DNA of 41,237 bases, taken from the IMG/VR virus record IMGVR_UViG_3300047557_001833, positions 1-41,237 of that record. The stretch is one strand, 5' to 3'. The notes below the pieces were generated by a model. It did no database searches. It was not told the DNA's origin and saw nothing but the letters and a program-made list of their open reading frames with translations. Position 1 is the first letter of the stretch. Every line of letters starts with the position of its first letter. The translations under genes and the position numbers were made by a program. Positions 5,621 through 15,539 of this stretch are shown here, piece after piece. Source of the stretch: a virus.

Positions 5621-6052
5621 ATGACAGCCGTTCCCCACCATCTTTCAATGAGTTGCATTCCAGACACCAAGAAAACACTCGAGATGCATGAGCTGTACAA
5701 ACAGGGCTTCAGTATTTCGCAAGTAGCAAGAGCGTTCGGAGTTAGTCGCCAATCAGTTTTTTCAAGGTTCCAACGAGCCTCACTAGAAACCAGATCAAAG
5801 CGGTTCCTCCCGTTCATTTACTTCAACGGAGCCAAGTACACCAAGCGAGTCAATGGATACTACGGACGCACTGACAAGGACCGCTCATTCCTGCACCGAG
5901 ACGTGTGGGAATCAGCCAACGGCAAAATCGCAGACGGGTTTGATATCCACCACATCGACGGTGACAAAACGAACAACGATCTGTCGAACCTTGAGCTTCT
6001 ATTGAAGTCTGAACACACCAAGAAGCACCACGCAATCAACACTCAAAAATGA
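5621..6052 (+). CDS. HNH homing endonuclease, 143 aa
   Basis: A free-standing HNH endonuclease. Residues about 20-50 form a helix-turn-helix (MHELYKQGFSISQVARAFGV). The nuclease core at the C-terminus reads DIHHIDGDKTNNDLSNLELL with the paired histidines at 110-111, N119 and a trailing histidine around 132 (SEHTKKHH). Such proteins make a DNA break at an intron-less target and spread by recombination. Start: ATG at 5621, with ATG at 5648 an alternative that would still keep both domains. Its stop overlaps the ATG at 6049 (ATGA). It is a mobile gene, probably inserted next to the methyltransferase rather than part of it. Confidence 0.85.
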   Translation: MTAVPHHLSMSCIPDTKKTLEMHELYKQGFSISQVARAFGVSRQSVFSRFQRASLETRSKRFLPFIYFNGAKYTKRVNGYYGRTDKDRSFLHRDVWESANGKIADGFDIHHIDGDKTNNDLSNLELLLKSEHTKKHHAINTQK

Positions 6053-11356: not shown

Positions 11357-11559
11357 AACCAGAACCCTATCGCGCCCTTGTGGACGACGCTGGCCGTGCA
11401 TTGTGCGGCTGGGTGCTGTCCGACGGTCGGCATTGCCTGGCCAGAGCAACGCACATGGGGACTCAGACCAGATGGTTTTTGTGTCGGTCTCATGCGGAGG
11501 AGGCGCGGGAGTATTTGAAAGCTGAATTGGTAGAACTGAGGAAGGAGGAGGCCAAATGA
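11353..11559 (+). CDS. Small Cys/His-containing protein, 68 aa
   Basis: A 68-residue protein with ALCGWVLSDGRHCLARATHM followed by FLCRSHAEEAREY. Cysteines and histidines at C...H-C...H...C...H suggest a small metal-binding module. The C-terminal helix is charged. GTG start at 11353 by the repeated cassette; the stop overlaps the next ATG after AAGGAGGAGGCCAA. No family is recognised. Confidence 0.6.
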   Translation: MKPEPYRALVDDAGRALCGWVLSDGRHCLARATHMGTQTRWFLCRSHAEEAREYLKAELVELRKEEAK

Positions 11560-11921
11560 GCGATCATATTCCTGACGTAACGAAAATGATCGGTGAGACA
11601 CCGAGGACGGATGCAGCGTACTTCAAACCTCACGCCACGATGTACGATCTAGCCGGTGAGATGAAGCTCATGGAACGCGAACTCAACGCGGCCAACAGCA
11701 AGATCGAAGCCCTCAACCGTGGCAACGCCGCTGCCGAGAGGATCCTTTGCGATGCTGCTGGCGTCGGATCTGGACGCGATGTCCTCGAATGGATCGTCGC
11801 TGCCAATGACCGCATCAAGCGGCTGGAGGAGGTGGGCGACGACCTAGAGTCATGGCTCGACCGAAAGACCCCGTTCACGATTCGCAATAATTGGCGCAAA
11901 GCCAAGGAGGCCAAGCCGTGA
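11556..11921 (+). CDS. TPRTD-family small phage protein, copy 2, 121 aa
   Basis: A 121-residue paralogue of the protein at 11090: HIPDVTKMIGETPRTDAAYF, then KLMERELNAANSKIEALNRG, an insertion of about 35 residues (ERILCDAAGVGSGRDVLEWI), then DRIKRLEEVGDDLESWLDRK and NWRKAKEAKP. The DNA for the ERELNAAN part is identical to copy 1 over some 26 bases, so the duplication is recent or maintained by recombination. ATG at 11556 with AAGGAGG upstream. Function unknown; helical. Confidence 0.7.
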   Translation: MSDHIPDVTKMIGETPRTDAAYFKPHATMYDLAGEMKLMERELNAANSKIEALNRGNAAAERILCDAAGVGSGRDVLEWIVAANDRIKRLEEVGDDLESWLDRKTPFTIRNNWRKAKEAKP

Positions 11922-12157
11922 GCGCAAGCGAAATTCGATTCGATCACCCTAAATACTGGCCATGCAAATGTCCCAGTTGCGGATGGCGGGGAATGAGCGA
12001 CGAGACAGCAGGAGGAAATAGGGTGCCGGGAGGAGACGATTACAATGATTGCGTTTGCCCTGTCTGTATTGCACCGGAAGGCAATTACGAGAAAGGAGGA
12101 TGGGTTCCTGTTGTTGAGATACCAAAACCGCCCGAAGCCAAGGAGGCCAAGCCGTGA
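11918..12157 (+). CDS. Small zinc-ribbon protein, 79 aa
   Basis: A 79-residue protein carrying CKCPSCGWRGMSDE and later CVCPVC, two cysteine knuckles spaced by about 25 residues that should bind zinc. The rest is flexible and proline-rich (VEIPKPPEAKEAKP). It starts at GTG in the third cassette copy and ends in the fourth. Comparable small ribbons occur in phage early operons as nucleic-acid or host-protein binders; the target cannot be inferred. Confidence 0.65.
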   Translation: MSASEIRFDHPKYWPCKCPSCGWRGMSDETAGGNRVPGGDDYNDCVCPVCIAPEGNYEKGGWVPVVEIPKPPEAKEAKP

Positions 12158-12348
12158 GCTTAGAAATGACTGTCAAAATCCAGTGGCAGAAGCGCGAGAT
12201 TCGCTTGTTGAAGCAGCGCATCAAGCGGCTGGAGGAGGCCATGTCTGAAATCGCCTACGCAGCAAGTCATCCACTAGGAGCGGGTCAGTCACTGACGCTT
12301 GGAAAGATTGAGTCAATCGCCATCAAAGCCAAGGAGGCCAAGCCGTGA
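12154..12348 (+). CDS. Short helical protein related to TPRTD family, 64 aa
   Basis: A 64-residue protein with QKREIRLLKQRIKRLEEAMS, then a short linker and IESIAIKAKEAKP. It shares the IKRLEE block (identical DNA over about 20 bases with the genes at 11090 and 11556) and the cassette-encoded end, but lacks the TPRTD box. It looks like a truncated or recombined relative. GTG start at 12154. Confidence 0.6.
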   Translation: MSLEMTVKIQWQKREIRLLKQRIKRLEEAMSEIAYAASHPLGAGQSLTLGKIESIAIKAKEAKP

Positions 12349-12494
12349 GCGTATTCGCAACCATCGGTATCATCCTGCTGCTCACATTCGCCGCACTGGC
12401 GTTTGGGCTTCTGATCGCCCTGGTCGTGCTGATCCAAGAGATCGGCCCGCTGGTGAGATGGCTGGGAAAACTGAGAAGGAGACAGAAGCCGTGA
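12345..12494 (+). CDS. Tiny membrane protein, 49 aa
   Basis: A 49-residue protein in the fifth cassette: GTG start at 12345, hydrophobic segment from about residue 4 to 32 (TIGIILLLTFAALAFGLLIA and beyond), then a basic tail LGKLRRRQKP. The positive C-terminus predicts an N-out, C-in single-pass protein. Size and topology would suit a small holin or membrane regulator, but nothing proves it. The next gene begins at the GTG overlapping its stop. Confidence 0.6.
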   Translation: MSVFATIGIILLLTFAALAFGLLIALVVLIQEIGPLVRWLGKLRRRQKP

Positions 12495-12739
12495 ACCATC
12501 TTGTTAACGCCAACAAAAAGGTCAGCAAAACCCCGCGCACAGACCGGCAGCCGTCTATGTGCTTTGGCCCGAATCTTGGTTTGTACGTCAAAATCGGTTT
12601 TGCCAAGCAGCTAGAGCGGCAACTGGCTGGTGCCAACAAGCGGATCAAGGAACTGGAGAAAGAGAACGACTCAATGCGAGCGGATCTGCTGCTGTGGGAC
12701 AAAGCTGGCATCGGATTCACAACGGAGGAAAAGCCATGA
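12491..12739 (+). CDS. TPRTD-family small phage protein, copy 3, 82 aa
   Basis: An 82-residue paralogue: NANKKVSKTPRTDRQPSMCF, then FAKQLERQLAGANKRIKELE and a charged helix. It is more diverged than copies 1 and 2 in both DNA and protein and lacks the KEAKP ending, finishing in TTEEKP instead. GTG start at 12491 overlaps the stop of the tiny membrane protein, with AAGGAG upstream. Role unknown. Confidence 0.65.
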   Translation: MNHLVNANKKVSKTPRTDRQPSMCFGPNLGLYVKIGFAKQLERQLAGANKRIKELEKENDSMRADLLLWDKAGIGFTTEEKP

Positions 12740-13017
12740 ATCTCAACGACTCCCAATGCAAGCTGATTGCCCGAAAGATCAATGAAGTCTGGACTGGCAA
12801 CAGGCCATGTCCAATCTGCTCGAAAAGCACCCGCTGGGACATCTCCGGCATCCATCAGGTTCAGCAATACAACGAGGGAAACCACTGCCCCGGTGCGGCT
12901 ATTGCTCCACTGATCCTAGTTTCCTGTCGTACCTGCGGCAACACGATCCTATTCAACGCCATCAGTCTTGGAATCGTTGACCCAGACACCGGCAAGGTAA
13001 AGGAGGACAGAGAATGA
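12736..13017 (+). CDS. Zinc-ribbon protein, 93 aa
   Basis: A 93-residue protein with RPCPICSKSTRWDISGIHQV and, about 45 residues later, LVSCRTCGNTILFNAISLGI. The two CxxC knuckles form a zinc ribbon like those of small phage proteins that read 'CP.C....W......c..CG....F'. It may bind nucleic acid or a host protein. ATG at 12736 overlaps the previous stop. AAGGAGGACAGAGAATGA at its end initiates the next gene. Confidence 0.65.
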   Translation: MNLNDSQCKLIARKINEVWTGNRPCPICSKSTRWDISGIHQVQQYNEGNHCPGAAIAPLILVSCRTCGNTILFNAISLGIVDPDTGKVKEDRE

Positions 13018-13232: not shown

Positions 13233-13474
13233 AACCCGTCCTCCCAGAATGCCGCCCAGGCCAACGGCGATTCGCCAAAGTCCCCGACCACATCCGGGCA
13301 ATGATCCTCAAGGAGCATCCAACAATCTCCTATCTGGAACTCTCAAAGAAATACAACCTCTCAAACTCCGTACTCTGGTACATCCGCAACAACGTCAAAT
13401 TCCCAAGTAAGTACAAAAAAAATGAATCTTCGAGAATACCAAAAACGAGTCGTCAACTGGGCCAAGACATCTGA
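13229..13474 (+). CDS. Small helix-turn-helix protein, 81 aa
   Basis: An 81-residue basic protein with AMILKEHPTISYLELSKKYN followed by LSNSVLWYIRNNVKF, a helix-turn-helix resembling the resolvase/homeodomain-like type. It overlaps the helicase start by 53 bases. It could control the helicase operon or act in replication initiation. The last residues are encoded by overlapping sequence and have little structure. Confidence 0.6.
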   Translation: MKPVLPECRPGQRRFAKVPDHIRAMILKEHPTISYLELSKKYNLSNSVLWYIRNNVKFPSKYKKNESSRIPKTSRQLGQDI

Positions 13475-15539
13475 CGGACTGATCATAGCCCCAGCCGGTA
13501 GCGGCAAGACCTGGATCGCCGCTTCAATCGTCAACCTCTATCCGAATGATCGCATCGGCTGGTTGGCTCCAACAATCGAAACCTGCAAACAGGCCAAGAC
13601 AGCCCTCGACTTAGCCGGTGTTGATCCCGCCCGCTACGAGATCCGATGCCCACACGAAAGCGTCGATTTCACTAAGTGCGAACTCCTGATCGTTGATGAG
13701 TGCTTTCCTAGTTGGACAAAAATAGGCCATAAAAACATCAGCGAAATCAAAGCTGGAGACATGGTTGATTCGTACAACCACGATTTAAAAACCGTTGAAA
13801 AACGCAGGGTTCTTGATGTTTTCAAGACTCCGGCACCAGACATGATGGTGACAGTTTGGACTGAAAACGGTCCAACAACCTGTACACCAGGACATCCATT
13901 CTGGAACGGATTCGAATATGTTCCAGCCGCCAACTTGACATCAAACGATGTGGTGGCCATCATTCCAACGCATGAACATGGAATGCAGGGAGTGCGGTTC
14001 GATGACCGAAAGAAGTGGTCATTTTTCAACAACTCGGAAGCCGGTTTGCGAACAATGCAAAACCGTTCTTCGTTTCGAGAAAAGGAAGCGAGTAGAAACT
14101 CAATGTGCATGGTGCAAGACACCAGTCACGTGCATGGGGAGAACTCCAGCTCACAAGAGTTTGGATGCTTTGAGGAGGGGGCGAGCCTACTGCTCGATTC
14201 AATGTCGGGACTTGATGGTTTCGAAAATGAGTTCGGAAACGATGTCTGCCACAAACAAAAGGATGGGAGACAGGATTTCGAAATGGATGAGCGCAAGAGT
14301 CGTGTCAGATCAAACCAGAAAGCGCGTCTCGGAATCTCTGAAAAAGATTGGCCACAAGCCCAAGATTCGTGGCGGAAATGGAACGGGTTACACGTTTGCT
14401 CAACACCAGCTTTCGTACATGTGCAACCTTCTGATGGAGTATGTTATACCTACAGCAGGGAGTGGAATGGCCAAGGTTCCAAATTGCTACAAGGTAGACT
14501 TGGCGGAACCATCGGTGAAGCTGGCGGTGGAAGTGGACGGCCCGTCTCACAACTCAATCAGCAGAAAAGCTGCGGACAAAAAGAAAACCGAAACACTCAA
14601 TTCGTTAGGGTGGTGCGTGTTGAGGTTCACAAACGAGGAAGTCCTTCTTGGTTCTCAGCAATGCGCGGAGAAGATCATGTCTACAATTTCTCGGTTGAGG
14701 GAAATGAGAACTACTTCGCAAACGGAATCCTAGTTCACAACTGCAAACACAGCCCAGCGAACCAATGGAAGCGTGTAATCGAACAGTGTAACGGGCGGCG
14801 TTATGGGTTCGATGCGACTCCGTGGTGCGATGATCCAGATCGCAATGAAGTCCTGCGGAAGCTCTTCCGAAATCGTCAGATCGAGATCACCAGGGCTGAC
14901 ATCGGCGATTCATTGGCCGACGCAACCCTAGTCCTTTCCAACGCGACCGACATGGGTCTTGAGATGCGAATCGACAATAACATCGAGCGGTTGTTCGATA
15001 CTAGACGTCGGTACATGAGGATCAGTGACGAGGAATTGAAACGGATGTGTGCATGGGAATCCATCGTGGACATCGGTATCTGCCAGAACAACGCCCGCAA
15101 CGAGTACGCCCGTGACGTGGCCATAACGCATGGCGATATGCAGACCTTGATCCTGGTGCCACGCATCACGCTAGGCGAGTGGTACGAGCATGAGATCCCC
15201 GGTGCCAGATTGGTTCACTCGAAGATCGGCAAGAAGGATCGACGCTCGTACATGGAGGAATTCAAGAGCGGCAACCTGAAGACGATGATCGCGACATCAT
15301 TGGCCGATGAAGGACTCGATCTTCCGAATGCTGAACTCTTGATCATGGTCAGCGGAGGGCGGTCCCCGCAGAAAACGATCCAGCGGGCCAGCCGTGTGTT
15401 GCGGAAGACATCGGATAAAAATAACGCGACAATCTATGATTTCACGGACAAGTTCCATCCCATCGGAGCGTTTCACGCTCGGAAGCGAATCAAATCATAC
15501 AAACAACTTGGGATCATAGATGAGCGCGAGTCCAACTGA
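13422..15539 (+). CDS. DEAH-type helicase (SF2) with intein, 705 aa precursor
   Basis: An SF2 helicase/ATPase interrupted by a 347-residue intein. The N-extein (1-93) carries motif I APAGSGKT (23-30) and ends in LLIVDE. The C-extein resumes at Cys441 with CKHSPANQW, so splicing rebuilds the motif II sequence DECKH. Later blocks are the Ia/III-like GFDATP, SLADEGLDLPNAELLIMVSG (motif V) and QRASRVLRK (motif VI). The mature enzyme is about 358 residues and would unwind DNA during replication or recombination. No nuclease is fused. The ATG at 13422 lies inside the upstream HTH gene, and the end overlaps the SSB start by 20 bases. Confidence 0.85.
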   Translation: MNLREYQKRVVNWAKTSDGLIIAPAGSGKTWIAASIVNLYPNDRIGWLAPTIETCKQAKTALDLAGVDPARYEIRCPHESVDFTKCELLIVDECFPSWTKIGHKNISEIKAGDMVDSYNHDLKTVEKRRVLDVFKTPAPDMMVTVWTENGPTTCTPGHPFWNGFEYVPAANLTSNDVVAIIPTHEHGMQGVRFDDRKKWSFFNNSEAGLRTMQNRSSFREKEASRNSMCMVQDTSHVHGENSSSQEFGCFEEGASLLLDSMSGLDGFENEFGNDVCHKQKDGRQDFEMDERKSRVRSNQKARLGISEKDWPQAQDSWRKWNGLHVCSTPAFVHVQPSDGVCYTYSREWNGQGSKLLQGRLGGTIGEAGGGSGRPVSQLNQQKSCGQKENRNTQFVRVVRVEVHKRGSPSWFSAMRGEDHVYNFSVEGNENYFANGILVHNCKHSPANQWKRVIEQCNGRRYGFDATPWCDDPDRNEVLRKLFRNRQIEITRADIGDSLADATLVLSNATDMGLEMRIDNNIERLFDTRRRYMRISDEELKRMCAWESIVDIGICQNNARNEYARDVAITHGDMQTLILVPRITLGEWYEHEIPGARLVHSKIGKKDRRSYMEEFKSGNLKTMIATSLADEGLDLPNAELLIMVSGGRSPQKTIQRASRVLRKTSDKNNATIYDFTDKFHPIGAFHARKRIKSYKQLGIIDERESN
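13701..14741 (+). mobile_element. Intein in the Walker B motif of the helicase
   Basis: In the helicase frame, residues 94-440 form an intein. It begins with CFPSWTKIGHKNISEIKAGD (block A, nucleophile Cys94). Block B is TTCTPGHPFW with T155 and H158. The C-terminus is VYNFSVEGNENYFANG followed by ILVHN and extein Cys441 (blocks F and G). The His-Asn/Cys junction and all splicing residues are intact, so it should splice. Between about residues 180 and 395 the helicase frame has no recognisable domain and no LAGLIDADG motif. That stretch is instead coding in another frame for an endonuclease (13978-14733). Confidence 0.9.
13978..14733 (+). CDS. Vsr/EDxHD-type homing endonuclease nested out of frame in the intein, 251 aa
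   Basis: A 251-residue nuclease in the +1 frame relative to the helicase. The N-terminal half has zinc knuckles: MECRECG, VCEQCK, CAWCK and YCSIQC. A basic helical linker RVSESLKKIGHKPKIRGGNG follows. The nuclease core reads YKVDLAEPSVKLAVEVDGPS, then a histidine, then TLNSLGWCVLRFTNEEVL. The E-V-D...H pattern and 'LGW.VLRF.N.EV' match very-short-patch-repair-like (EDxHD) homing endonucleases. The last ~130 bases overlap the intein's C-terminal splicing domain, so both frames are constrained there. Alternative starts are 13948 and 13972; 13978 begins just before the first zinc knuckle. It has no evident ribosome site. Confidence 0.8.
   Translation: MECRECGSMTERSGHFSTTRKPVCEQCKTVLRFEKRKRVETQCAWCKTPVTCMGRTPAHKSLDALRRGRAYCSIQCRDLMVSKMSSETMSATNKRMGDRISKWMSARVVSDQTRKRVSESLKKIGHKPKIRGGNGTGYTFAQHQLSYMCNLLMEYVIPTAGSGMAKVPNCYKVDLAEPSVKLAVEVDGPSHNSISRKAADKKKTETLNSLGWCVLRFTNEEVLLGSQQCAEKIMSTISRLREMRTTSQTES

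Follow-up and report, generated by a model that had tools for sequence, protein, structure and literature searches.

Can a phage gene carry a complete intein and, over the same nucleotides, a homing endonuclease (HEN) in another reading frame? The question is raised by a 41-kb viral record (IMG/VR IMGVR_UViG_3300047557_001833; its 41,237 nt are referred to here as the window), in which a helicase gene is interrupted by an intein at 13701–14741, and the DNA of this intein contains a second open reading frame (ORF) for a predicted EDxHD/Vsr-like HEN. All parts of this element are on the plus strand; the frame of the helicase is denoted frame 0 and that of the nuclease +1. Judged from comparative sequence data and structure models, the element is very probably a mobile intein with a HEN gene of its own, which lies nested in +1 and is translated separately by internal initiation.

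An intact intein in helicase motif II

The precursor ORF (13422–15539, 705 aa) encodes a superfamily 2 (SF2) helicase and showed Pfam matches to ResIII, Helicase_C and Intein_splicing (residues 104–440, E 1e-9). The intein is inserted at helicase motif II (DE^C) between an N-extein (13422–13700) and a C-extein (14742–15539), both parts of the helicase ORF, and comprises 347 codons from Cys1 to HN, while the Cys+1 belongs to the C-extein. Cys1, the block B motif TPGH and the C-terminal HN^C were all identified. An earlier sequence-only reading had proposed an intact intein with these limits and motifs, and the Pfam match, as well as the exact 1041-bp difference from an intein-free relative described below, bear it out.

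The AlphaFold model of the frame-0 intein showed a confident Hint fold (pLDDT ~97) made of residues 1–92 (Hint N-terminal part, 13701–13976) and residues 296–347 (Hint C-terminal part, 14586–14741), the latter ending in VHN and matching TIGR01443 (intein_Cterm). Residues 93–295 in between (13977–14585) are open in frame 0 but disordered, being modelled without structure (pLDDT ~45). A stretch that is meaningless in frame 0 had indeed been noticed by the sequence-only reading; however, it covers ~58% of the intein rather than the middle third. Foldseek matched the Hint model to RecA and DnaB mini-inteins, and a profile search also recovered the Hint fold. Frame 0 is continuous, so the two Hint parts are not on separate polypeptides as in a split intein. 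With this anatomy, and the selection described below, the frame-0 product is expected to be a splicing intein.

A predicted EDxHD homing endonuclease in the +1 frame

The +1 ORF at 13948–14733, which follows a TGA stop at 13936–13938, showed a match to DUF559 (Pfam, E 5e-13). Its first ATG (13948) was rejected as the HEN start because it is not conserved (ATA in L009 and GTG in L010), whereas ATG 13972 and ATG 13978, directly before a CxxC zinc ribbon, are both invariant in the close clade. Therefore, the HEN starts at 13972 or 13978 and ends at 14733, with a length of 253 or 251 aa, respectively. The catalytic core lies after the zinc ribbon and consists of D (~14497), ExD (14530–14538), H (~14548) and D (~14575); in A2, D176, D189, G190, H193 and D202 are invariant and E187 is near-invariant.

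The AlphaFold model of the +1 protein was well folded (pLDDT 91.9), with the catalytic domain of I-Bth0305I being its best PDB match by Foldseek (3r3p; probability 1.00 and target TM 0.62, with an E-value of only 0.009). I-Bth0305I is the reference EDxHD homing endonuclease, and the EDxHD family is described in PMC3943268. The models of the two frames are complementary, and the +1 frame is thus predicted to encode an EDxHD homing endonuclease with a full core, as the sequence-only reading had suggested. The two coding sequences share 14586–14733, where 148 nt encode the Hint C-terminus in frame 0 and the HEN C-terminus in +1.

Distribution of the overlapping layout

The HEN alignment was used to scan contigs of viruses and genomes, and the loci were classified by Hint and HEN hidden Markov models, which gave 134 loci corresponding to 103 distinct inteins. 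The HEN was in the +1 frame in all of them, as in the window, and fused in frame in none. C1 was identified in 103 of these inteins, TxxH in 102 and HN^C in 99, with Asn before Cys or Ser in all 103; the nuclease core is kept in 103 of 103, at which 99 are strict and 4 are conservative variants judged by eye. The usual site is DE^C, and the host genes are mainly SF2 helicases, with some SNF2 proteins and two DnaX-like clamp loaders. Relatives with a broken +1 frame in an otherwise conserved overlapping intein were looked for among these loci and none was found.

Searching phages by tblastn revealed the layout in Corynebacterium phage phi673, in Vibrio phage CP-T1 and others, and in Pseudomonas phage MR14. 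No DNA match to the window region was found among cultured phages. In 7 of 7 GenBank phage records examined the HEN had been left without annotation, and these unannotated nucleases are now exposed. The genome contigs with the layout belong to 14 named phyla, including the isolate Ktedonobacter racemifer, although many of them may be prophages or mis-binned viruses.

In a search independent of the HEN, whose sole input was the splice junction G-x-x-V-H-N^C-H-H written as a DNA pattern, the HEN was detected in the +1 frame in 75 of 80 untruncated matches (not deduplicated; the 75 represent 68 distinct inteins). Among the other five, L280 has a 130-residue mini-intein with no nuclease at the DE^C site, L253 and L276 have inteins with in-frame LAGLIDADG-like domains at the same site, L259 has no recognised nuclease, and L306 has a different nuclease that is out of frame. 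Five further candidates (L028–L032) were rejected as relatives, being short shared-motif matches in GIY-YIG and other nucleases. Taken together, these searches show that dual-frame inteins form a class that is widespread and stably maintained, both in phages and in bacterial genomes.

Two variations were observed within the family. The helicase ORF of L025 (1973–5269) has, in addition to the overlapping intein at motif II, a second intein at Walker A with an apparent in-frame HNH-like nuclease. In L045 and L046 (3233–4280 in both) the HEN ORF extends 157 nt beyond the intein into the C-extein and therefore would overlap the host helicase coding sequence too.

Selection on both frames

Substitutions were compared among 11 unique close relatives with ungapped 347-codon inteins, using NG86 dN/dS values, which are biased for overlapping genes and of which the contrast between regions alone was used. 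At the 5′ side of the HEN, the pattern of substitution is that of frame 0 (dN/dS 0.19), whereas within the HEN it is that of the +1 frame (dN/dS 0.14) and frame 0 looks neutral (1.49), so that 13977–14585 is constrained by the HEN only. Where the two C-termini overlap, both frames show constraint, with dN/dS of 0.61 in frame 0 and 0.23 in +1. The codon-position bias was significant (p ~1e-14).

Stop codons gave a second line of evidence. Shuffling the HEN codons synonymously, 13.9 frame-0 stops were expected inside the HEN and none was observed; frame 0 was likewise free of stops within the HEN in 9 of 9 lineages tested by this shuffling. Over the 103 distinct inteins 970 stops were expected in the Hint frame and 0 were present, while in the third frame 1534 were present and 1374 expected; the zero is partly definitional, as the loci were classed as continuous, and what is informative is the size of the class and the contrast with controls. 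No such avoidance was seen in these controls, namely free-standing HENs, split HENs and a further 40 DUF559 domains. Moreover, the Tyr codon of the HEN Tyr-Lys motif is TAC in 91 of 91 overlapping copies, because TAT would make TAA in the Hint frame, and is TAT in the free-standing copies of L039 and L154.

Selection therefore keeps both frames of the window clade. The dual coding of the two C-termini, put at ~130 bases by the sequence-only reading, is real and slightly longer than supposed; two unrelated folds are dual-coded over ~150 nt and retained across great divergence.

Mobility of the element

The same helicase without the intein was identified in L193 and L194, with 97.8% protein identity and a difference of exactly 1041 bp from the window. 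Similar pairs were found among cultured phages: phi673 has a 302-residue intein and is 99.4% identical outside it to the intein-free phi674 (DE^C versus DE^V; 99.2% identity between the two phages in DNA), CP-T1 has a 353-residue intein that is absent from VchM-138 (DE^C versus DE^A), and in FoX3 and FoX2 the intein is present and absent, respectively. The host protein is encoded uninterrupted in the intein-free L193, phi674 and VchM-138. That the +1 residue has become Cys would fit co-conversion during repair.

Comparing the window with L001 at the DNA level, the intein is 92.9% identical and the C-extein 70.9%, while the order is reversed with L011 (83.6% and 94.1%, respectively). As the intein and extein identities disagree, the element therefore moves, by this comparison, between helicase lineages. 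The discordance rests on the close clade and not on the whole family, across which the distances of Hint, HEN and extein gave only intermediate Spearman coefficients (0.43–0.52).

Expression of the nuclease and alternative explanations

We infer internal initiation to be the favoured mechanism for production of the HEN. The helicase frame would give one precursor, in which the Hint fold assembles from its two pieces with ~200 disordered residues looped out between them and would splice out at DE^C, while initiation at the ATG before the zinc ribbon would release a free EDxHD nuclease of 251–253 residues. The nuclease would then cut motif II alleles that lack the intein, and repair templated by the invaded copy would insert the 1041-bp element and could convert the next codon to Cys. 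Both frames are kept open by selection. Separate expression of the nuclease, which the sequence-only reading had raised as one purpose of the overlap, is predicted here too and is likely the point of the layout. Of 100 relatives, 48 have a Shine-Dalgarno sequence before a start ahead of the zinc ribbon, whereas a matched background gave 25% (p 9e-7); the matched background was used since single internal ATGs (10%) exaggerated the excess. These sites fall inside the Hint N coding sequence.

Some observations weigh against this account. No recognisable Shine-Dalgarno sequence precedes the HEN in the window clade, and half of the relatives lack one as well. In addition, recombination within the intein, seen against L001 (HEN 98% and HintN 85% identical), complicates transfer as a single unit. 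Most of the start sites checked in the window phage are also without a Shine-Dalgarno sequence, which suggests a host with Shine-Dalgarno-independent initiation.

Programmed +1 frameshifting is the alternative that survives best, yet we consider it unlikely. It would yield a fusion of N-extein, HintN and HEN instead of a free nuclease, and could explain why the HEN is always in +1 and why half of the copies have no recognisable Shine-Dalgarno sequence. However, a single origin would also explain the uniform frame, the zinc ribbon of the window clade has a conserved ATG in front of it, the relatives show the Shine-Dalgarno excess, and the +1 stop at 13936–13938 makes frameshifting less likely by leaving only a short stretch in which a shift could still occur.

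It is less probable still, and by a clear step, that the +1 protein is real but has another role in the phage, such as recombination or exclusion of rivals, after homing was lost. Many inteins show decay of their nuclease; the catalytic core, on the other hand, is kept in every overlapping copy, which speaks for such a role. Nevertheless, exact presence and absence in sister phages, together with the intein/extein discordance, indicate mobility, and the fold matches a homing endonuclease.

That the +1 frame is a chance ORF or decayed pseudogene, or a sequencing or assembly frameshift in an ordinary fused intein, has almost no probability left: no supporting point was found, the 103 conserved relatives with intact cores, the HEN dN/dS of 0.14 and the stop avoidance in the Hint frame rule out chance and decay, and the recurrence of the layout in 103 distinct inteins excludes a sequencing error, the doubt that the sequence-only reading had itself raised. 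Just as improbable is an RNA intron carrying the nuclease gene with an incidental intein-like frame, for although EDxHD nucleases occur in group I introns too (PMC3943268), no Rfam match was found over 13300–15000 at a permissive threshold, the Hint fold is complete with conserved catalytic residues, and frame 0 is kept open.

As to internal initiation from a nested gene, this mechanism can be tested directly, as can homing and the price paid for the overlap, with the phage pair phi673/phi674 of the harmless Corynebacterium glutamicum.

Split, free-standing and independent cases

Three arrangements of this HEN family were identified, in which the overlapping one is dominant. In L039 (3396–5461) and L154 (3010–5278) a free-standing HEN is present immediately upstream of an intein-less helicase. 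In L052 (2660–4951), L240 (2529–4748) and L242 (2511–4748) the Hint frame is broken and the HEN is placed between its halves, with the HintC ORF starting inside the HEN; L052 and L240–L242 are the only split inteins in the family. In the HEN tree, which has many weak branches and no fixed root, the split HENs fall into a single clade (support 100) with a long branch.

The sequence-only reading had regarded the overlap as a possible intermediate between fused and split inteins. A transient state is not supported, as no in-frame fusion with this HEN was detected and the overlap is the stable majority; on the split side the idea has more to offer, since one small clade of split relatives exists and split inteins may derive from the overlap. 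Frame-0 stops, with an own start for the C-half, would give a split intein with the nuclease between its halves, as in L052 and L240–L242. The split state is observed in these loci, and a direction from overlap to fractured gene would be its simplest reading. If true, overlap followed by loss of the frame-0 reading would be a natural, plausible and testable route to fractured genes with EDxHD nucleases.

In Xanthomonas phage FoX3 (L306:1005–3542, MT161383), motif II is interrupted at the same position by an intein whose +2 frame encodes a LAGLIDADG_2 nuclease (Pfam E 1e-21); frame 0 of this intein is open, with 0 stops where 2.6 would be expected (P 0.03). The sister phages FoX1, FoX2, FoX5, Murka and M29 do not have this intein. 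FoX3 represents an independent origin of an out-of-frame nuclease in an intein, although this is less strongly supported.

A broader view, to which we would give not quite even chances, is that these inteins are an old, separate class, in which the overlap ties the nuclease to the splicing domain, the nuclease is expressed independently of splicing and is hard to lose without harming the Hint C-terminus, loss of frame 0 leads to split inteins, and FoX3 shows an independent origin.

Other features of the window

At 5621–6052 the window encodes a protein with HNH_3 and helix-turn-helix domains, possibly another free-standing homing endonuclease. Several consecutive small ORFs with near-identical EAKEAKP-type tails were detected at 11540–12740; a 24-nt stretch of this region occurs twice (12136–12159 and 12327–12350) and has an exact match in L001.

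Comparison with known systems

The nearest precedents of the window layout are fractured genes and the ShiLan insertion. In fractured genes, reportedly described by Dassa et al. in 2009, the intein is said to be split, with an EDxHD/Vsr-like endonuclease standing free between its two parts. These genes share with the window the nuclease family, its position in the intein and a preference for phage DNA-replication genes, and their layout is that of L052 and L240–L242 of the HEN family. Unlike these, the window intein is continuous, its nuclease lies in the other frame instead of standing alone, and its Hint C-terminus is dual-coded.

ShiLan has an out-of-frame HNH endonuclease insertion in a methylase gene, which is mobile and leaves the host frame open, and in which the authors found no splicing domain (PMC11855218). 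Both insertions thus carry an endonuclease in another frame and leave the host frame open; in the window, however, the nuclease is of the EDxHD type, the site is helicase motif II and the host frame contains a complete Hint intein. For overlapping frames, PMC11855218 cites a 2025 preprint by Gosselin, Arsenault and Gogarten on non-canonical actinobacteriophage inteins, which, by its title and the citing context, may be a report of related layouts. In the literature searched we recognised no description of an intein with a homing endonuclease in another frame, and priority is uncertain.

I-Bth0305I (PDB 3r3p), the best fold match of the HEN catalytic domain, is carried by a group I intron, and thus by RNA, and not by an overlapping intein frame. 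Canonical inteins have a splicing domain with the nuclease in the usual insertion region, as do L253 and L276 at the same site, whereas the window nuclease is in a different frame and not fused. Alongside in-frame fusion and a free-standing gene between split halves, the overlap gives inteins a third means of carrying a homing nuclease, and one that is common and no freak.
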